A DNA stretch of 55,926 nucleotides from SAR202 cluster bacterium Casp-Chloro-G2. GTDB taxonomy: Bacteria; Chloroflexota; Dehalococcoidia; Lucifugimonadales; UBA3495. Positions 2,122 to 26,002 of the stretch are shown here, one piece after another. Numbering within the stretch: position 1 is the first letter of the stretch; every line of letters starts with the position of its first letter. The stretch covers positions 1-55,926 of the forward strand of contig MUCI01000049.1 of assembly GCA_002816575.1 (NCBI GenBank). The letters are read 5' to 3'. The notes below the pieces were generated by a model that had not been told where the DNA came from, did not search any database, and worked only from the letters and a program-made list of their open reading frames with translations. The position numbers and the translations under genes were made by a program.

Positions 2122-3714
2122 ATGGTCCGACGAAGAGACAGCTCAAGCGAATTGACCCCAGAGGACTTCCTAGAATCCAGGCAGGATGACTCTGATTCCC
2201 CGAACCCCGTTCTGGACATAATCCGCAACGTGGATGCCGCACGTGATGATGAGGGGACCGATCCCGACGGCATGCCCGCCGGCCGACCGGCTACCCTGAT
2301 CGAAAGTACGGGCGACGCTGCCTGGGAAGGCGGAACACCGGCAGCCGAGAAAGACGGCGAAACCACCGAAACCGCTGAAACCGCCGACGCCAATGACGAC
2401 GAGGAGCCCGAATGGGAGCCTGAGACCGAGTCGGTCGAGGTGTTGGACGACCCCGTGCGCATGTATCTGCGGGAGATCGGGCGGGTGCGCCTGCTCACCT
2501 CCGCGGATGAGCGCTCCCTGGCCCGCAAGATCGAGGGCGGGAAGCATCTGGAAGCCCTGCGCAATGAATTGACCGAGCTTGAGGGCCGCCCACCACGGTC
2601 ATGGGAGATCACCGCCGGACTGCTGAAACGCATGGTTGATGCAGCCCCGCTGGTGAAATCGCTGTCCGAGCAGTTGGGGTTGCCTTCTGATTTGACCATC
2701 TCCCAGATCACCGACCATCAGAAGCTGCGTGACGCCATCGACGCCGAGGTTTCGGTGGACCTGCTGGCGGCCATGGGCGAAGACCTGAATGAATACCCGG
2801 ACGACGTGTACCAGAGGGTTATCGCGCTCTCTCTGAGCTCCTGGTTAGTGCCGCCTGACGCGGTGGACGTCCTGGAGGACTCGACCCTTGACCAGTTGGA
2901 CGCCAAGCTGTCGGAGCTGAGCAGCTTCTCGGACCTGCAGGAACTGGACCCGCTATTCCGGGCCTATTTCCGGCGGATCGATGCCGAGAGCGAACGCGCC
3001 CAAGCCCGCCTGACCGAAGCCAACCTACGGCTGGTGGTCAGCGTAGCCAAGAAGTACATCGGGCGCGGCATGGCGCTGCTGGACATGATCCAGGAAGGGA
3101 ACATCGGGCTGATTCGCGCGGTGGAAAAGTTCGACTACCGCAAGGGCTACAAGTTCAGCACCTACGCCACCTGGTGGATCCGCCAAGCCATCACCAGGGC
3201 CATCGCCGACCAGGCGCGGACCATCCGGATCCCGGTGCATATGGTGGAAACCATCAACAAACTGATGCGCCAACACCGCCGGCTGCTTCAGGAGTACGGT
3301 CGCGAGCCCACTCCTGAGGAGATCGGCCTGGCCATGGAGATCGGGCCGGAAAAGGTTGAGGAGATCCTGAAGATATCCCAGGAACCGGTGTCTTTGGAAA
3401 CGCCCATCGGCGAAGAAGAGGACTCCCATCTGGGGGACTTCATCGAAGACCGCAACGCACTGGCGCCGGCCGATGCGGCGTCGTTCCAACTGCTTAAGGA
3501 GCAGGTTGGCGAGGTGCTGCACACCCTGACCGAGCGTGAAGCCCGGGTGCTCCAGCTCCGGTTCGGGCTGGAAGATGGACGGAGCCGCACACTGGAAGAG
3601 GTTGGACGAGAGTTCGGCGTAACCCGTGAACGGATCCGTCAGATCGAAGCCAAAGCGTTACGGAAGCTGCGCCACCCCACCCGCTCCCGGAAGCTCAAGG
3701 ACTTCCTCGAGTAA
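2122..3714 (+). CDS. rpoD: Primary RNA polymerase sigma factor (sigma-70/SigA)
   Basis: This is the housekeeping sigma factor that directs core RNA polymerase to promoters. After an acidic, poorly conserved N-terminus it shows region 1.2 ([12 protein letters not shown], from about residue 109). A nonconserved spacer follows, then region 2 from about residue 294 with [13 protein letters not shown] and the -10-reading [10 protein letters not shown] segment. Region 3 and region 4 complete it, with the [17 protein letters not shown] helix-turn-helix near residue 503. At 530 residues it is of primary-sigma size, unlike the ECF factor at 39.5 kb. Its start has a strong GAGGAGG site overlapping the dnaG stop. 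The conserved regions 2.4 and 4.2 fit the extended -10 promoters seen across the window. Confidence 0.97.
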
Positions 3715-7576: not shown

Positions 7577-8941
7577 TCAGTTGGGACCTGTACGTCTATC
7601 TAATATTCTAGCAGGAACGCCAACAGCTAGTCTAGCCGCCGGGACGTCTTTCGTGACGACCGCGCCCGCCCCTGTGACGGCGGCGGCGCCGACGGTAACT
7701 GGGGCCACCAGCAGAGTGTCACAGCCGATGAACGCGCCGCTCTCCACCACCGAACGGTGTTTTTCCCGGCCATCGTAATTGCAGGTCACCGTGCCCGCGC
7801 CCACGTTGACGTTGGAACCGATGGACGCGTCGCCAATGTACCCGAAATGGCCCATTACAGCGCCCGCCGCAAAACGGCTCTCTTTCACTTCGACGTAGTT
7901 TCCGATATGCACGCCAGACTCCAGGTAAGCGCCGGGCCTCAGATGGCTGAACGGACCGACATCCACCCCGGATTCCATGACCGCCTCTTCCATCGCGGAA
8001 GATGTCACCCGGCAATCGTTCCCGATGGCCGAGTCTCTGATCACCGAGCCAGGTCCGATCTCGCATCCGGAGCCGATGACCGTTCTTCCCAAGAGCATGG
8101 TATTGGGCAACACCACGGTGTCCTGTCCGATCACCACGCCGTCGTCAATCATCACTGAAGACGGGTTGGTGATGGTCACCCCTTCCAGCATCAATCGCTC
8201 CCTGATCCGGCGGCGTTGAATGTCCTCCAGGTGGGCCAGTTCCACCCGGTTATTGATCCCCAGGACCTCAACGGAGTCGTCTACCGGCTGGGCTGCCACC
8301 AAGTCCCCTTGCCTAGAGGCGATTCCCGCCAGGTCAGTCAGGTAACGCTCGGGACTACCGCCGGCCGCCACCTGGCCCAGGTTCGCCCACAGCCAATCGG
8401 CTTGGAAGCAGTAAACCCCCGAGTTGACCTCCACTGTCTGCCCGGCCCTGGCGGCGTCATCGGTGTACTCAATGATGGCGTTAACGCCCTGCTGAGAACC
8501 GGTATCCCTGCTGATGCGCCCCAGGCCGTGGCCGTCTTGCACCAGGCCGGAAAGGATGGACATCTGCCGGCCGCCCTCGATGTGGCCTTCAACAAGCTCG
8601 CGCACCGAGTCTTCAGTCACCAACGGGGAATCTCCGCCCATGACGACGATATCGCGCGCGCCGCGGACGGTTACGGAGGACGCAGCTTCCACCGCTCCGG
8701 CCGTTCCTGTCCTGGCTTGTTGAACGGCGTATTGCACCGAATCTCCCAGCAGTGCTTTGACCGCATCCTGATTGGACGGCGAAACCACCACAACGATGCT
8801 TTCCACGCCCAACTTACCCAACAGTTCCACGGGATACCGAAGCAACTCTTTGCCGCAGAGCCGGTGCAGCACCTTGGGCAACCGGGACTTCATCCTGGTT
8901 CCCTCGCCGGCGGCCAGTATTATGCCTGCCAAGTTGTCCAT
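7577..8941 (-). CDS. glmU: Bifunctional GlcNAc-1-P uridyltransferase / GlcN-1-P acetyltransferase GlmU
   Basis: GlmU makes UDP-N-acetylglucosamine, the precursor of peptidoglycan and surface glycans, in two cytosolic steps. The N-terminal half is the nucleotidyltransferase with the ILAAGEGTRM loop, K-x-L-P-K-V-L-H and the MGGDSPLV metal-binding region. The C-terminal half is a left-handed beta helix of hexapeptide repeats carrying the acetyltransferase (GAYLESGVHIGNYVEVKES, NVGAGTVTCNYDG). At 454 residues it is standard. It is divergent from the amidase at 9162 and first in a probable two-gene unit with the CBS protein. A TGC-TATAAT promoter lies about 50 bases upstream. Having glmU beside a sortase-like gene fits a cell with a peptidoglycan-type wall, though this is indirect. 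Confidence 0.96.
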   Translation of the reverse strand: MDNLAGIILAAGEGTRMKSRLPKVLHRLCGKELLRYPVELLGKLGVESIVVVVSPSNQDAVKALLGDSVQYAVQQARTGTAGAVEAASSVTVRGARDIVVMGGDSPLVTEDSVRELVEGHIEGGRQMSILSGLVQDGHGLGRISRDTGSQQGVNAIIEYTDDAARAGQTVEVNSGVYCFQADWLWANLGQVAAGGSPERYLTDLAGIASRQGDLVAAQPVDDSVEVLGINNRVELAHLEDIQRRRIRERLMLEGVTITNPSSVMIDDGVVIGQDTVVLPNTMLLGRTVIGSGCEIGPGSVIRDSAIGNDCRVTSSAMEEAVMESGVDVGPFSHLRPGAYLESGVHIGNYVEVKESRFAAGAVMGHFGYIGDASIGSNVNVGAGTVTCNYDGREKHRSVVESGAFIGCDTLLVAPVTVGAAAVTGAGAVVTKDVPAARLAVGVPARILDRRTGPN

Positions 8942-10663: not shown

Positions 10664-10700
10664 CGTCGCTGCCCAACAAACCGTGCCACGCCAGTACTAA

Positions 10701-10966
10701 GTCTACATAATGACCAACCGATCACGAGCTCTATATATATCGGGGTCACGAACGACCTCGAGCGCCGGGTACACGAGCATAAATCTGGAGCTATTGACGG
10801 ATTTACGAAGCGATACAACATAAATCGGCTGGTCTATTTCGAAACGACCAGCAGTGTTAAGGGCGCAATCTCCACCGAGAAACGGATGAAGAGATGGAGA
10901 AGATCCAAGAAGATCGACCTGATTGAACAGAACAATCCCGGGTGGAAAGACCTCTCCGAAGGGTAG
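10701..10966 (+). pseudogene. GIY-YIG nuclease-like gene broken by a 2-base insertion
   Basis: Two frames together encode a small single-domain GIY-YIG protein. The first frame reads VYIMTNRSRALYI. After a TA-rich run (10731-10740) the sequence continues two bases out of phase as GVTNDLERRVHEHKSG, then the conserved Lys/Arg-rich tail KRMKRWRRSKKIDLIEQ, ending at TAG 10964. Removing one TA pair would restore LYIGVTNDLERRV, the family signature. The initiating Met is also missing, since a stop lies just before VYIM. This is a decayed copy of the short GIY-YIG group often present as multiple intergenic copies in bacteria. A second broken copy lies at 19.24 kb. No remnant of a partner gene is visible. 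Confidence 0.75.
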
Positions 10967-10985: not shown

Positions 10986-11150
10986 AATGAGACCCCTCGC
11001 TTCGCTCGGGGTGACAGGGTAGGTCGGGGTGACAGGGTAGGTCGAGACGACAGGGTAGGTCGGGGTGACAGGGTAGGTCGGGGTGACAGGGTAGGTCGAG
11101 ACGACAGGGTAGGTCGGGGTGACAGGGTAGGTCGAGGTGACAGGATCTGC
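10986..11150 (+). repeat. 18-bp tandem repeat with 54-bp higher-order period
   Basis: Eight 18-bp units run from 11007 to 11150. Most read CGGGGTGACAGGGTAGGT (type A); the third and sixth begin CGAGACGACAGG (type B), and the eighth is degenerate. The order A A B A A B A gives a 54-bp superperiod. The array starts directly at the end of a dispersed element (GACCCCTCGCTTCGCTCGGG, 10991-11010), from whose last bases it seems to have grown. Because 18 is a multiple of three, it keeps a frame open into the next amidase, but the real start of that gene is downstream. Confidence 0.9.
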
Positions 11151-18986: not shown

Positions 18987-19042
18987 GTAATGCGGTGACT
19001 GGCCAGCCTGACGGCCGAACGCTCGTCGCCGCACACCGAAGT

Positions 19043-19118
19043 GGGGCTGTAGCTCATCTGGGAGAGCGTCCCGATGGCTCATCGGGAAGGTACGGGGTTC
19101 GAGTACTTGCGGCCTAGG
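19043..19118 (+). pseudogene. Damaged tRNA-Ala copy
   Basis: The 5' half (acceptor strand, D arm) is identical to the intact tRNA-Ala at 19132, including four bases of 5' flank. The anticodon arm has stem TCCCG/CGGGA, but the loop reads ATGGCTCAT, two bases longer than the normal ATGGCAT. The sequence matches again through GGTTCGAGT. The 3' T-stem and acceptor strand are then replaced by unrelated bases, so no cloverleaf can close. Confidence 0.7.
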
Positions 19119-19131
19119 TTTACATATCAGT

Positions 19132-19207
19132 GGGGCTGTAGCTCATCTGGGAGAGCGCTTCAATGGCATTGAAGAGGTACGGGGTTCGAGTCCCCGCAGC
19201 TCCACCA
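19132..19207 (+). tRNA. tRNA-Ala (anticodon GGC)
   Basis: A complete cloverleaf is visible. The acceptor GGGGCTG pairs with CAGCTCC (one G-T wobble). The D arm is GCTC/GAGC, the anticodon stem CTTCA/TGAAG encloses loop ATGGCAT (anticodon GGC), and the T arm is CGGGG-TTCGAGT-CCCCG. Discriminator A and an encoded CCA follow. It lies 14 bases after a damaged copy and is probably transcribed from the same promoter. Confidence 0.93.
19178..19207 (+). repeat. 30-bp direct repeat, left copy (inside tRNA-Ala 3' end)
   Basis: This is identical to 19525-19554. The two copies flank the broken GIY-YIG gene with 317 bases between them, as attachment-site duplications at tRNA 3' ends do. Confidence 0.7.
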
Positions 19208-19239
19208 CTCACTAAATAAGAATCCTTCCTTCAGCAATC

Positions 19240-19487
19240 ATGTTCTATGTGTACGTTCTCCGCAGCGAGCGCAATGGGCGTTATTACATCGAGAGCACCG
19301 GCACATGAATACTCGCCTGGAGCAGCACAACGCGGGGATGACCAAGTCCACCAAACCATATCGCCCCTGGCGGCTGGTCCATCACGAAGAGTTCGGGACT
19401 TTATCTGAGGCTGGGAAACGGGAATTCCGGATAAAATCTTGGAAGAGCCGCCCTTACTTAAAAGCCCAATTAGACATCGGCGCATAG
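19240..19487 (+). pseudogene. Second GIY-YIG nuclease-like gene, frameshifted
   Basis: ATG 19240 opens MFYVYVLRSERNGRYYIESTGT and stops at TGA 19306. The rest of the domain, NTRLEQHNAGMTKSTKPYRP followed by WRLVHHEEF and a GKREFRIKSWKSRPYL tail, continues in another frame to TAG 19485. Together they make a complete 80-residue GIY-YIG domain of the intergenic single-domain type. The Gly of the expected YYIGST is Glu here. An ATG (19305) overlaps the stop as ATGA, so coupled translation of the second part is formally possible, but decay is simpler. The gene lies between the intact tRNA-Ala and a broken tRNA-Ala copy. Confidence 0.75.
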
Positions 19488-19554
19488 CGCATTTGGGAGA
19501 GCGTCCCGACTGCCATCGGAGAGTTACGGGGTTCGAGTCCCCGCAGCTCCACCA
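19488..19554 (+). pseudogene. 3' remnant of a tRNA-Ala copy
   Basis: From 19525 to 19554 the sequence is a perfect 30-base copy of the 3' end of the intact tRNA-Ala (T arm, acceptor strand and CCA). Upstream the D arm is recognisable but altered, and the anticodon region (TCCCGACTGCCATCGGAGA) cannot form a regular stem-loop. The 5' acceptor strand is missing and is replaced by the end of the GIY-YIG gene. Confidence 0.7.
19525..19554 (+). repeat. 30-bp direct repeat, right copy
   Basis: Perfect copy of the tRNA-Ala 3' end at 19178-19207. It could come from tRNA gene duplication or from an integration event at the tRNA. Confidence 0.7.
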
Positions 19555-22142: not shown

Positions 22143-22300
22143 GCAGGCGGCAGTTTTCGACCGCATCGGGCGTTGGAGAATGATTCTCCCCATAGATGGT
22201 TCCGCTGCCAACCGGCTCCTCGCCTCCACTGCCCGTGACCGTCCCACTTCGTCCTCTCCCGCCCATAATCCATCATGTACCTCCTCCGGTCGTGACGTTC

Positions 22301-22306
22301 TATAAT
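22301..22306 (+). promoter_or_regulatory. -10 box directly before the first MFS start
   Basis: A consensus TATAAT ends six bases before the ATG at 22313, and no Shine-Dalgarno sequence lies between. If used, the transcript would be leaderless. No clear -35 is seen. Confidence 0.45.
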
Positions 22307-22312
22307 GCTCCG

Positions 22313-23506
22313 ATGACCACCCAAGCCCCCATCGTCGTTGCGTCGAGCCAAGCCCGCGCATTCGCCATCATCGCGGCGGCGCTGTTCTTGAACAACACGG
22401 CCGCTTTGATGCTGGGTCCCTTGCTGGTGGACATCGCCAGGGAATATGACACTTCCGTCGCCGTGGCCGGTCAATTGACGGCGGCCACCTTCGCGTCGTG
22501 GGCCATATTTGCTCCATTGGCTGGCCCTTTTTCCGATTCCTTGGGGCGGCGTCCCGTGGCGTTGGCCGGGCTATCGCTGATGGGGACCTGCATCCTGGGC
22601 GCGGCGTTCGCGCCCAATTTCTTCGTCCTGATGGCGCTGCTCATCGGCGCCGGATTGAGCGGCGCAATGATCCCGCCCAATAGCATGGCCGCCATCACCG
22701 ACGTCGTCGCGGTCGAACAGCGAGGCCGGGCAATCGGAGCGGCCCAGGGCATCAGCACGTCGGCGGCGGTGATCGGCGTTCCGGCGGTCGCGGTCCTGGC
22801 CAGTTTGGGCGATTGGCGGCTGCCCTTCGTTGTCTGCGGCGCGCTGCTCTTGGCCACGTTCGTCCTATCTTGGTTCTGGTATCCCAGAGGCCCCGCGGTT
22901 GGCCCCAAGGCGTTCTCCTATCTGGACCGGTTCCGCGAGTTGGGGTCCATATCCGTGTTCCGCATCGGGATGCTGGCCAGTTTCTCCCAGCGGACCGCCT
23001 TTTATGCGGTTGTCGGGTATGTCGCCGCCTACCTCATCGACACCTACGGTATGAGCGTCGGAGAGACCGCGTTGCCACTGGCCGTGGTCGGCTCCGGCGC
23101 CGTGCTCGGCAGTCTCTGGGCCGGGATGATTGCCGATCACCGGAAGCGGCTCAGTTTTACGGCGGGGGCCGCCTTGGCCGGCGGAGTCGGCGCGGTAGTT
23201 GTGTTCGCCATCGACCCATCGATCTGGGCAACCGTGGCCATCGCCTTTGGCGCCGTCTGTCTCTTGAGCGTCGGCTGGCCCGTCTTCATCACCTTCGCAA
23301 CCGACGTGGCGGGGCAGTCACGGGCCACCGCGGTGGGCATGATGGGCGGCAGCAACCGGCTGGGAGGCGTGGCTGGGTCTGCCATCGGAGGCGCGTTCTT
23401 GGCCATTGGCGGCTACGCGGCGGTGGGAATCTTCTGCCTGGCGGCGGTGGCATTCTCGGGATCGGTGATGCGGTTATTCATGCGGGAACCGGAACCGGCG
23501 GCGTAA
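22313..23506 (+). CDS. MFS transporter (tandem paralogue 1 of 3)
   Basis: This is a 397-residue major facilitator with about twelve membrane helices, probably a drug or metabolite exporter of the DHA1 type. The MFS loop motif GPFSDSLGRRPVAL lies between helices 2 and 3, and the motif MIPPNSMAAITDVV is shared by all three tandem copies. Twelve helices and a central hydrophilic loop (about residue 190) are visible. ATG 22313 is chosen because it immediately precedes the first helix region and has TATAAT six bases upstream. The open frame runs 39 codons further upstream through proline-rich sequence of no helix character. It is followed 44 bases later by copy 2. Confidence 0.9.
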   Translation: MTTQAPIVVASSQARAFAIIAAALFLNNTAALMLGPLLVDIAREYDTSVAVAGQLTAATFASWAIFAPLAGPFSDSLGRRPVALAGLSLMGTCILGAAFAPNFFVLMALLIGAGLSGAMIPPNSMAAITDVVAVEQRGRAIGAAQGISTSAAVIGVPAVAVLASLGDWRLPFVVCGALLLATFVLSWFWYPRGPAVGPKAFSYLDRFRELGSISVFRIGMLASFSQRTAFYAVVGYVAAYLIDTYGMSVGETALPLAVVGSGAVLGSLWAGMIADHRKRLSFTAGAALAGGVGAVVVFAIDPSIWATVAIAFGAVCLLSVGWPVFITFATDVAGQSRATAVGMMGGSNRLGGVAGSAIGGAFLAIGGYAAVGIFCLAAVAFSGSVMRLFMREPEPAA

Positions 23507-23550
23507 TTGAATCCAAACGCTCTCTCGCGCCCCTCCGGCCCTAGACTCCC

Positions 23551-24702
23551 ATGAGCCAAGCCCGCTTCCTGATATCCATCGCGGCGGCGTTGTTCGTCAC
23601 CCAGAGCGCGTCCCTCATGGTGGCGCCGTTGTTGGTCGATATCGCATCGGAGTTCAATACCTCGGTGGCGGTCGCCGGGCAGCTTGCCACCGCCACGTTT
23701 GCGGCGTGGGCCGTCTCGGTCGTGGTCGTTGGGCCCATGTCCGACTCGTTTGGCCGGCGGCCGGTGGCCCTCACCGGGCTTTCCCTGCTCAGCATCGGGG
23801 TATTGGCATCGGCCTTCGCGCCCAATCTGGGCACTTTGCTGGCATTCAGGGTGCTTACCGGACTGGGCGGAGGCATGATACCGCCCAACAGCATGGCTGC
23901 CGTGGCCGACGTTGTAGCGCCCGCCCACCGCGCTCGGGCGGTGAGCCGGTTGATGGCCTTCAACACCCTATCTTCGGTGATCGGGATACCTCTTTTGGCT
24001 CTTGCCGCCGAATGGGGAGGATGGCGGCTTCCCTTCCTGATCATGGGTTCCATATTAGGGGCGGTGGCCATCTTGAACTGGTTCTGGTTCCCCAAGAACG
24101 AGGGCTCCGGACTGCGGTCGTTTTCCTTCTTCTCCCGGTATCGGGCGTTGCTGTCGCTCCCGATATTCCGGGCGGCCATCGCGGTGAACCTGGCCCAGCG
24201 CATGGCCTTCTTCGCGCTGTTCAGCTACCTGGCGGCATACCTGATCGACACCTACGATATGAGCGTTGCGGCGGTCGCCCTGCCACTGGCCATCGTGGGC
24301 GTCGGCCGGGTGATTGGCAGCTACATGGCCGGGACCGTGGGAAACCGGGACGACCGGATGCCCCTGATATCCATTTGTTCTTTGAGCGGAGGGGTGGCCG
24401 CGTTGCTGCTGCTTTCGATCAATGTTCCCGTCTGGGTCGTGGTGGCCCTGGCCACATTGGCGATCGGACTGCTGAGCGTCGGTTGGCCGGTGATGATCAC
24501 CTTGAGCACCGAGGTGTCGGGACGATCAAGAGCGACCGGAGTAGGTCTGTTGGGCTTCAGCAACCAGTCTGGCGGAGTCGGCGGGGCGGCCATCGGCGGC
24601 GTTCTGCTGGCGGCCAGCGGGTTCCCCGGCATCGGGTACCTGTGTTTGGGCGCCGCGGTTTTCTCGACGGTGGTGATCGCGATCTTCATGCGGCGGCATT
24701 AG
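23551..24702 (+). CDS. MFS transporter (tandem paralogue 2 of 3)
   Basis: This is a 383-residue, twelve-helix major facilitator closely similar to its neighbours on both sides. The motifs GPMSDSFGRRPVALTGLSLL and MIPPNSMAAVADVV, and the late GWPVMITLSTEVSGRSRATG segment, occupy the same places as in copies 1 and 3. The ATG has no ribosome site; a TAGACT box ends four bases before it, so start control may resemble copy 1. The three copies differ throughout, so the duplication is not recent. Substrates are unknown. No TetR- or MarR-type regulator accompanies the cluster. Confidence 0.9.
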   Translation: MSQARFLISIAAALFVTQSASLMVAPLLVDIASEFNTSVAVAGQLATATFAAWAVSVVVVGPMSDSFGRRPVALTGLSLLSIGVLASAFAPNLGTLLAFRVLTGLGGGMIPPNSMAAVADVVAPAHRARAVSRLMAFNTLSSVIGIPLLALAAEWGGWRLPFLIMGSILGAVAILNWFWFPKNEGSGLRSFSFFSRYRALLSLPIFRAAIAVNLAQRMAFFALFSYLAAYLIDTYDMSVAAVALPLAIVGVGRVIGSYMAGTVGNRDDRMPLISICSLSGGVAALLLLSINVPVWVVVALATLAIGLLSVGWPVMITLSTEVSGRSRATGVGLLGFSNQSGGVGGAAIGGVLLAASGFPGIGYLCLGAAVFSTVVIAIFMRRH

Positions 24703-24707
24703 GCTGA

Positions 24708-24716
24708 TGCTAAACT
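24708..24716 (+). promoter_or_regulatory. Extended -10 promoter before the third MFS gene
   Basis: TGC-TAAACT ends nine bases before the ATG of a 28-codon upstream frame, so transcription would start within a few bases of that ATG. Confidence 0.45.
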
Positions 24717-24724
24717 GAATCTCG

Positions 24725-24811
24725 ATGAACCCGAACCATCCTTCGCGGCCTGTTTCGCCGCTTGATCATTTAATCTCGCAGATTCCGGCAACCGGCATCC
24801 GGCGGCCCTGA
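24725..24811 (+). CDS. Possible 28-codon upstream ORF (leader peptide) of the third MFS gene
   Basis: ATG 24725 opens MNPNHPSRPVSPLDHLISQI and ends with TGA at 24809-24811. The TTG start of the MFS gene follows with no gap. The ATG lies at the predicted transcription start of an extended -10 promoter and has no ribosome site, as in leaderless messages. The peptide resembles nothing known. It may couple translation to the transporter, or it may be chance. Confidence 0.35.
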   Translation: MNPNHPSRPVSPLDHLISQIPATGIRRP

Positions 24812-26002
24812 TTGGCGAAGACAGCAACTTCCCCGGCAGTGGGCCAGGGCCGGTTCCTGGCGGTCACCGCCGTCGGCATGTTCCTAAGTCAGAACGTTGG
24901 GTTGATGCTCGCCCCCCTTCTGGTTGACCTGGCCGCCGCGTTTGACGTGTCGGTTGCCGCGGCTGGGCAGCTTGCGGCGGTGACTTTTGGCGCCTGGGCG
25001 ATATCGGTGGTGTCGTCGGGTCCGATCTCAGACTCCTTCGGCAGGCGTCCCGTGGCGGTGACCGGGTTGGCTCTGTTGGGGCTAAGCACCCTGGCGTCGG
25101 GATTCGCTCCCAGCTTCGCGGTCCTGCTCGGTTTGCGGGTCGTCACCGGCCTGACCGGCGGCATCATCCCGCCCAACAGCATGGCGGCCGTGGCCGACGT
25201 TCTACCTCCGGCGAAAAGGGCTCGTGCGTTCGGACGCCTGATGGCGTTCACATCGCTGTCGTCGGTGATCGGAGCTCCGTTCGTGGCGGCGGTGGCCAGC
25301 GCCGGGGGGTGGCGGGTCCCGTTCCTGGTGATCGGGTCTCTGCTCTTGGTTTGCGCTGTTTTGGCCTGGTTCTGGTATCCCAGGACGCCCAGACCAGCGT
25401 TGGCATCGTTCTCCTTCCTGGCGCGGTACAAACAGATGGCTGGCATCGGGTTGTTCCGGTCGGCCTTGGCAGCGAACTTTCTACAGCGGGTGGCGTTCTA
25501 CGGGACCATCAGCTACCTGGCGGCGTTCCTGATCAGCGAGCACGGTCTGAGTGTGGGCGAGACCGCGGCGCCGTTGGCGGTCGTGGGCATCGGCGTCGTA
25601 GTTGGCAGCACGATGGCCGGGACCGTATCAGCCATGGAGCGGCGGGCCCAGGTGCTCGCCGGGTGCGTCCTGGCAGGGGGCCTGGCGTTTCTGGTCCTGT
25701 TCGCCCTCGACCTGGGAGCCTGGGGCAGCGTTGGCCTGGCGTTGGTCGGCGTCACCTTCATCAGCATCGGCTGGCCCACATTCTTGGCCATCAGCACCGA
25801 GATCTCCGGCGCCTCACAGGCCACCGCCGTGGGCATGTTGGGCGCCAGCAACCAACTTGGCGGCGTGGGCGGTGCGGCGTTGGGCGGCGCGGTTCTTGCC
25901 CTGGGCGGTTTCTCTACGATAGGATTTTTGTGTTTCGGCGCGGCGTTGGTCTCGGCAATGGTGTTGCAATTCGGGATGCGCCGCCGCCCGCCGTCGAGCT
26001 AG
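24812..26002 (+). CDS. MFS transporter (tandem paralogue 3 of 3)
   Basis: This is a 396-residue, twelve-helix major facilitator. It repeats the cluster motifs GPISDSFGRRPVAVTGLALL, IIPPNSMAAVADVL and GWPTFLAISTEISGASQATA. The longest reasonable frame starts at TTG 24812, directly abutting the stop of a 28-codon upstream frame (TGATTG). There is no Shine-Dalgarno site, so reinitiation after the upstream frame is plausible. Copies 2 and 3 are visibly closer to each other than to copy 1 in the helix 2-3 loop. All three may export related compounds; the linked amidase and oxygenase clusters offer no clear substrate. Confidence 0.88.
   Translation: MAKTATSPAVGQGRFLAVTAVGMFLSQNVGLMLAPLLVDLAAAFDVSVAAAGQLAAVTFGAWAISVVSSGPISDSFGRRPVAVTGLALLGLSTLASGFAPSFAVLLGLRVVTGLTGGIIPPNSMAAVADVLPPAKRARAFGRLMAFTSLSSVIGAPFVAAVASAGGWRVPFLVIGSLLLVCAVLAWFWYPRTPRPALASFSFLARYKQMAGIGLFRSALAANFLQRVAFYGTISYLAAFLISEHGLSVGETAAPLAVVGIGVVVGSTMAGTVSAMERRAQVLAGCVLAGGLAFLVLFALDLGAWGSVGLALVGVTFISIGWPTFLAISTEISGASQATAVGMLGASNQLGGVGGAALGGAVLALGGFSTIGFLCFGAALVSAMVLQFGMRRRPPSS

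Follow-up and report, generated by a model that had tools for sequence, protein, structure and literature searches.

How does a tRNA gene come to stand between two damaged copies of itself, with a GIY-YIG endonuclease gene enclosed among them? This question is raised by a locus in the window, a stretch of 55,926 nucleotides that represents a whole contig (C49 of genome G000) of a SAR202 cluster bacterium with a genome of 1.9 Mb, 76% complete. The locus is probably a decayed member of a chromosomal family of tRNA-resident, free-standing GIY-YIG elements of the homing type, which would operate in a mode resembling that of the phage endonuclease SegB without being a SegB. The existence of a widespread family of tRNA-resident GIY-YIG elements is well supported, and with it a strange heap of tRNA pieces between genes becomes a recognisable, recurring element.

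The tRNA-Ala locus of the window

The features of the locus, all on the forward strand, are as follows.

19043 to 19104, +, 5' tRNA-Ala copy (copy 1), from BLAST and alignment to nucleotides 1-60 of the intact tRNA
19069 to 19087, +, hairpin TCCCGAT-GGCTC-ATCGGGA replacing the anticodon arm of copy 1, a pattern common to tRNA copies of many phyla
19132 to 19207, +, intact tRNA-Ala(GGC), from ARAGORN
19178 to 19207, +, left copy of a perfect 30-bp direct repeat (T arm, 3' acceptor strand and CCA), from BLAST
19240 to 19487, +, GIY-YIG endonuclease pseudogene with a frameshift near 19299-19305 and its TAG stop at 19485-19487, within copy 3
19485 to 19554, +, 3' tRNA-Ala copy (copy 3), from BLAST and alignment to tRNA nucleotides 8-76
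19525 to 19554, +, right copy of the 30-bp direct repeat, identical to 19178-19207, from BLAST

A sequence-only reading of the window had described a single intact tRNA-Ala between two damaged copies, and this arrangement was confirmed. The intact gene is 97-100% identical to those of same-genus relatives and 100% identical to the genes at two empty sites (L079 and L080); it is presumably the working host gene. Copy 1 follows the tRNA from nucleotide 1 to 60 and is divergent thereafter in the BLAST alignment. It retains the complete 5' end and the D arm and lacks the 3' acceptor strand, as had been proposed; the supposed two-base insertion in its anticodon loop, in contrast, proved to be the exchange of the anticodon arm for a hairpin with a 7-bp stem, whose loop varies among tRNA copies in many phyla. 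Because of this hairpin, ARAGORN calls copy 1 tRNA-Ser(GCT). In copy 3, the 5' acceptor strand is missing, the D stem is present, and a decayed hairpin at 19504-19520 is a damaged form of that in copy 1. The earlier description of this copy, with its perfect 30-bp 3' end and its 5' end lost to the tail of the GIY-YIG gene, was accurate, as was the observation that the perfect repeat brackets the GIY-YIG gene. About 320 bp separate the two repeats, and the GIY-YIG frame is their only content. Within the 1.9-Mb genome, copies 1 and 3 are the strong matches to the tRNA-Ala of the window besides the tRNA itself; since such matches are limited to these two and the layout recurs in relatives, it represents more than chance.

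Two points had been missed in the sequence-only reading, namely the hairpin nature of the anticodon arm in copy 1 and the frameshift in the GIY-YIG gene. The first frame (19240-19308) encodes MFYVYVLRSERNGRYYIESTGT*, that is, 22 codons followed by a stop, while the remaining 60 aa are read in another frame from 19305 and match the Pfam GIY-YIG family with an E-value of 4.7e-6. Intact homologues form one 82-aa frame in three relatives (G002, G006 and G010). Both the G002 homologue (53.7 bits) and the window remnant (27.3 bits) score above the curated PF01541 cut-off of 22.6 bits. Pfam recognises the GIY-YIG domain alone in the element nuclease, and NCBIfam and PHROGs searches with this protein returned zero matches. 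The closest solved structures by sequence in a PDB search are the UPF0213 proteins 1ywl (E 4.4e-6) and 1zg2 (E 1e-3), which are single-domain GIY-YIG proteins like the element nuclease and were deposited as hypothetical proteins. Between close nuclease pairs, dN/dS is 0.04-0.15; therefore, intact nuclease copies are kept by purifying selection.

From one genus to many phyla

The same site was compared by a DNA search of 60 relatives. In G002, G006 and G010, an intact 82-aa GIY-YIG gene lies between an intact tRNA and a hairpin-bearing 3' copy, with three tandem 5' copies in G002 and two in G006. The GIY-YIG gene is frameshifted in the window and in G011, only scars upstream of the tRNA are left in G001, G007 and G009, and G005 and G008 are empty, with one undisturbed tRNA following the same NHL-type gene; the site in G003 is masked by N. 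One genus shows the whole life cycle of the element, in the form of intact, frameshifted, scarred and empty sites, and filled and empty alleles with matching flanks coexist within it. An empty site had been named beforehand as a check, and G005 and G008 provide it with the same flanks. Similarly, four relatives of the same genus and members of other families have a GIY-YIG gene next to tRNA-Ala, and in other phyla one adjoins other tRNAs. These comparisons support the original suggestion that a tRNA gene was targeted or duplicated by a small GIY-YIG element, which subsequently decayed.

The limits of the insertion were determined against the empty locus L080. In most filled loci, upstream homology ends 0-33 bp short of the first copy. 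Downstream, distances were counted from the CCA of the last copy where the locus is filled and from that of the lone tRNA in L080; on this scale, homology with G006 and with G011 resumes at about 76 bp in both of the sequences compared, and G002 is near register. Therefore, the insert is bounded by the tRNA's own two ends. One intact tRNA is kept, through which host function is retained.

Two further observations concern this neighbourhood. Positions 22196-26002 of the window hold three similar major-facilitator transporter genes in tandem, and in relatives such a gene is located directly 3' of the tRNA-Ala site. In L085 (G040), the intact tRNA-Ala(GGC) gene (7926-8001) is followed, about 4.2 kb downstream, by a 45-nt fragment of a tRNA-Ala(GGC) 3' end at 3656-3700; this contrasting case is a more ordinary footprint of integration at a tRNA 3' end.

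Beyond the genus, a strict pattern (D stem, hairpin and variable loop) was searched in species genomes of many phyla and yielded at least 116 hairpin-bearing stretches in a tRNA context, a sample biased towards the hairpin since the pattern requires it. Hosts belong to Bacteroidota, Chloroflexota, Nitrospirota, Acidobacteriota, Patescibacteria and other phyla, and cultured carriers include Flavobacterium, Niastella, Chitinophaga and Marinifilum. An assembly artefact of the single MAG, which had been considered for the window, is unlikely, because the same hairpin copies are present in isolates grown in culture (Flavobacterium aquatile, Niastella caeni, Chitinophaga pinensis and Marinifilum). 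Copy numbers at single loci could be altered by MAG assembly. With a GIY-YIG profile built first from 10 sequences and rebuilt by iteration, a GIY-YIG frame was detected at most 1 kb away in 63 of 143 scored hairpin loci; several of the remaining loci are at the ends of the retrieved DNA or consist of arrays only. In a set collected without the hairpin, from PF01541 hits, tRNA flanks about 10 of the roughly 80 standalone genes, where about one would be expected by our own estimate (about 45 tRNAs, a 1-kb window each, 3 Mb). Rfam at its cut-offs reported only tRNAs in five carrier loci.

Elements turn up repeatedly at genes for various tRNAs in many phyla; the linked tRNAs are Ala (GGC, CGC, TGC), Met, Ile, Val, Pro, Gly and Arg. 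The hairpin that usually replaces the anticodon arm is CCCGATnnnATCGGG. Loci of tRNA-Asn bear other hairpins (GTCCGCC..GGCGGAT and GTCCTTC..GAAGGAT), and an independent tRNA-Asn variant, GGTCC..GGATTAACC, is rare, being found in 2 of 250 genomes of the order and in G078. At L157, L160, L186 and in G006, the hairpin otherwise seen in the anticodon arm also replaces D and T arms. An intact element is thus composed of a single-domain GIY-YIG gene of about 80 aa, an intact host-type tRNA, and at least one hairpin-armed, non-functional tRNA copy. On an IMG/VR contig classed as viral (L273), a copy of a tRNA-Pro element carries three hairpin-bearing copies; such a contig is a possible vehicle between hosts.

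Two layouts occur. The first consists of the intact tRNA, the GIY-YIG gene and a 3' copy; in the second, a 5' copy is followed by the GIY-YIG gene and the intact tRNA, with the upstream sequence duplicated (L081, L082, L160 and L210). The copies have a clear polarity: 42 of 56 upstream of the tRNA begin at nucleotide 1, while 36 of 48 downstream reach the last nucleotide and only 2 of these 48 begin at nucleotide 1, the 104 copies including some from overlapping retrieved stretches. The tRNA is co-directional with the nuclease gene in all 57 cases (57/57). The nuclease reading frame ends on a stop codon drawn from tRNA sequence at many type-A loci, namely the TAG of TGTAGCTC or TTAGAGCG. Two units of GIY-YIG gene, hairpin and 3' tRNA stand in tandem at L215, and tandem 5' copies also occur at L071 and L172, reaching five in Niastella caeni.

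Palindromes, the nuclease tree and alternative explanations

The nuclease tree (129 rows, 78 columns) is poorly resolved at depth, its deepest split having 76% support. Association with tRNA requires 10 changes on it, compared with 42.3 for shuffled labels, and none of 500 shuffles was as low; 54 of the 57 tRNA-associated proteins fall within one 62-row half. Rows from Chloroflexota and Patescibacteria are nested in Bacteroidota groups (G281, L247), and Flavobacterium tRNA-Ala elements are nested among tRNA-Met elements. This nesting suggests that elements may have been transferred and may have switched targets, with moderate supports of 84-94 at these nodes and a long branch for L247.

The relatives of these nucleases raise the strongest alternative. 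When left and right 450-bp flanks were compared by BLAST, a test that replaced a search for exact hairpin arms (13 of 71 loci), a shared repeat was found at 44 of 78 standalone GIY-YIG loci of the order versus 3 of 291 random positions. Outside the tRNA class, the shared flanks are mostly REP-like palindromes, inverted or direct, and the palindrome type tracks the nuclease tree (3 changes, where shuffled labels needed 15.8 on average and never fewer than 11). Across loci L043-L135, the families CATTCC..GGAAT, CTGAGC..TCGAAGG and CATTCTGAG..GAAGAATC are each confined to their own GIY-YIG clade. The window itself holds a second standalone GIY-YIG frame at 10700-10966 (Pfam E 6.7e-11), placed by the tree in a palindrome-associated sister clade; a repeat of the GTCATTCTGAG..GAAGAATCC type lies about 80 bp upstream of it, and a short tandem repeat, GGGGTGACAGGGTAGGTC, downstream at about 11000-11140.

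The CCCGAT hairpin is over-represented in carrier genomes, where pattern searches of whole genomes counted 1-391 sites versus 0-2 in controls. Confinement of the hairpin to tRNA copies holds for the window genome (5 sites in 1.9 Mb) and fails in carrier genomes, where it occurs outside tRNA contexts; therefore, it is not exclusive to the element. In G480 (L280 1501, L282 2571, L294 1501), CCCGAT..ATCGGG hairpins are found within the loops of other palindromes, in the nested forms TGTCATTCTGAG-[hairpin]-GAAGAATCTC and TGTCATTGCGAG-[hairpin]-GAGGAAGCAATCTC, which look as if hairpins insert into hairpin loops.

On this basis, a hairpin-targeting analogue of REP systems can be entertained tentatively, at somewhat less than even confidence. 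Here, a putative single-domain GIY-YIG protein recognising hairpin or cruciform DNA would mobilise REP-like palindromes in most relatives, while the tRNA clade would use tRNA genes, which fold into cloverleaves, and swap their arms for its own hairpin; the unit of recognition would be a structure and not, as in ordinary homing, one allele. The excess of shared flanks over control positions, the agreement of palindrome type with the tree, the swapped D and T arms and the hairpins inside other palindromes favour such a system. However, the flanks of the tRNA class are direct copies and not inverted palindromes, and the palindromes could merely be preferred landing sites. In its broadest form, single-domain GIY-YIG proteins might be the engine of an undescribed class of bacterial mobile DNA living in hairpins, its clades paired with the three palindrome families above, which cross phyla, and one clade residing in tRNA genes with arms turned into the CCCGAT hairpin; we consider this possible, with the balance of belief against it. 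The element family offers a testable candidate driver for the spread of several widespread palindromic repeats.

Vertical inheritance within the family combined with concerted evolution of the copies, and no homing, would explain part of the pattern.

The hairpin pseudo-tRNAs could instead serve the host as decoys for tRNA-cutting toxins or defences, amplified by the nuclease. Tandem arrays of 5' copies, with the five of Niastella caeni, are in line with such a role, and a precedent exists in the amplification of tRNA-Tyr by SegB in phage T6 under Septu pressure (PMC13096335). The copies, however, lack one acceptor strand as well as a normal form of the anticodon loop, which such enzymes usually attack; there is no dosage gain, because just one functional tRNA remains, and the locus is patchy in the genus, where empty sites exist. 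A host-serving locus is thus quite unlikely.

The sequence-only reading had likened the 30-bp repeats to attachment sites. As a description of the layout this stands, with a directly repeated tRNA 3' end and the tRNA restored on one side. As chemistry it fails: if the repeats were the attL and attR sites of an element that had integrated at a tRNA 3' end and lost its integrase, an integrase would be expected in intact elements, and those of relatives hold the GIY-YIG gene only; the hairpin-bearing 5' copies do not fit either, and neither these nor the reversed order at L081, L082, L160 and L210 are made by tRNA 3'-end integration. We regard this origin as highly improbable. Passive duplication and decay of a tRNA beside an unrelated GIY-YIG gene has next to no credibility. 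Duplication of tRNA genes is a known event, and these genomes are rich in GIY-YIG genes, but the same polarity, hairpin, strand and shared stop codon at many tRNA genes and phyla contradict this reading.

Proposed mechanism and comparison with known systems

For the preferred reading, a tRNA-resident homing-type element, the following course can be proposed by analogy. The nuclease would cut or nick an element-free tRNA gene, and recombinational repair would copy the element in, duplicating tRNA segments as in the case of phage SegB. The hairpin copies may represent the ends of the element or products of repair, either recognised by the nuclease or no longer open to cutting by it. Once the element is fixed, its nuclease gene would mutate and the element would be lost; the locus in the window is probably at such a stage. 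The hairpin may either destroy the nuclease's own target, protecting the filled allele, or be the structure that the nuclease recognises, which would tie the tRNA clade to its palindrome-flanked sister clades. We favour the second role on account of the replaced D and T arms and the hairpins nested in other palindromes.

Several known systems share single traits with the element. Integrative islands that use tRNA 3' ends leave the 3' end directly repeated and the tRNA restored. The element shares both traits; unlike these islands, it has no integrase, has hairpins and 5' copies, and is under 1 kb. An island of this type was rejected for the window, as an integrase gene is absent from the roughly 320 bp between the repeats. 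In REP/RAYT systems, RAYT is a Y1 (HUH) tyrosine transposase working with REP palindromes. The likeness lies in a small nuclease gene between palindrome copies and, in the sister GIY-YIG clades, in the pairing of palindrome type with protein clade; in contrast to RAYT, the nuclease has the GIY-YIG fold and the tRNA-class flanks are direct tRNA copies. A REP/RAYT system proper was rejected, since intact elements encode GIY-YIG only and inverted palindromes occur in the sister clades only. A group I intron was likewise rejected: ARAGORN finds tRNA-Ala uninterrupted, and intron families are absent from the Rfam scans.

The double-hairpin elements of fungal mitochondrial DNA are short hairpins regarded as mobile (Paquin 2000, cited in PMC5910586), and in this they are alike. 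The present hairpins differ from that description in being bacterial, in being tied to a nuclease gene and a duplicated tRNA, and in sequence. In the literature searched, a description of the element was not found, nor was any such element linking GIY-YIG with REP sequences, palindromes, pseudo-tRNA, tRNA-Ala or Bacteroidetes tRNA repeats; most subscription journals lay outside that scope, so this absence is weak evidence. In annotation pipelines, such elements end up as isolated GIY-YIG genes and pseudo-tRNAs, the latter at times assigned the wrong amino acid, as when copy 1 is read as tRNA-Ser.

The closest counterpart belongs to phages and is SegB, whose family has proteins longer than 200 aa. 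Membership in the SegB protein family was rejected for the 82-aa nuclease, which has no PHROGs match. SegB of phages T4 and T6 is a free-standing GIY-YIG homing endonuclease in tRNA gene clusters, for which cutting, repair-driven copying and duplication of tRNA segments were demonstrated experimentally, and tandem repeats of tRNA-Tyr and segB arise via microhomology of the segB 3' end with the start of the tRNA (PMC13096335). The element is free-standing as well, with tRNA-Ala uninterrupted and the nuclease gene between tRNA copies, outside any intron or intein; alleles with and without it occur at one site, and the unit is amplified in tandem (L215), as in free-standing homing. As with SegB, a GIY-YIG gene adjoins a tRNA, the tRNA-plus-nuclease unit is duplicated in tandem, and the tRNA range is wide. 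In SegB, the 3' end of the nuclease gene is fused with the tRNA 5' region; here, the stop codon is fused with the tRNA D loop, a junction of the same kind. Unlike SegB, the elements reside in bacterial chromosomes and not in phages, their proteins of about 80 aa consist of the catalytic domain only, the anticodon arm of their tRNA copies has given way to a hairpin, and broken copies flank one intact tRNA. The principle shown for SegB, joint travel and duplication of a GIY-YIG nuclease with a tRNA gene, is thereby extended to bacterial chromosomes.
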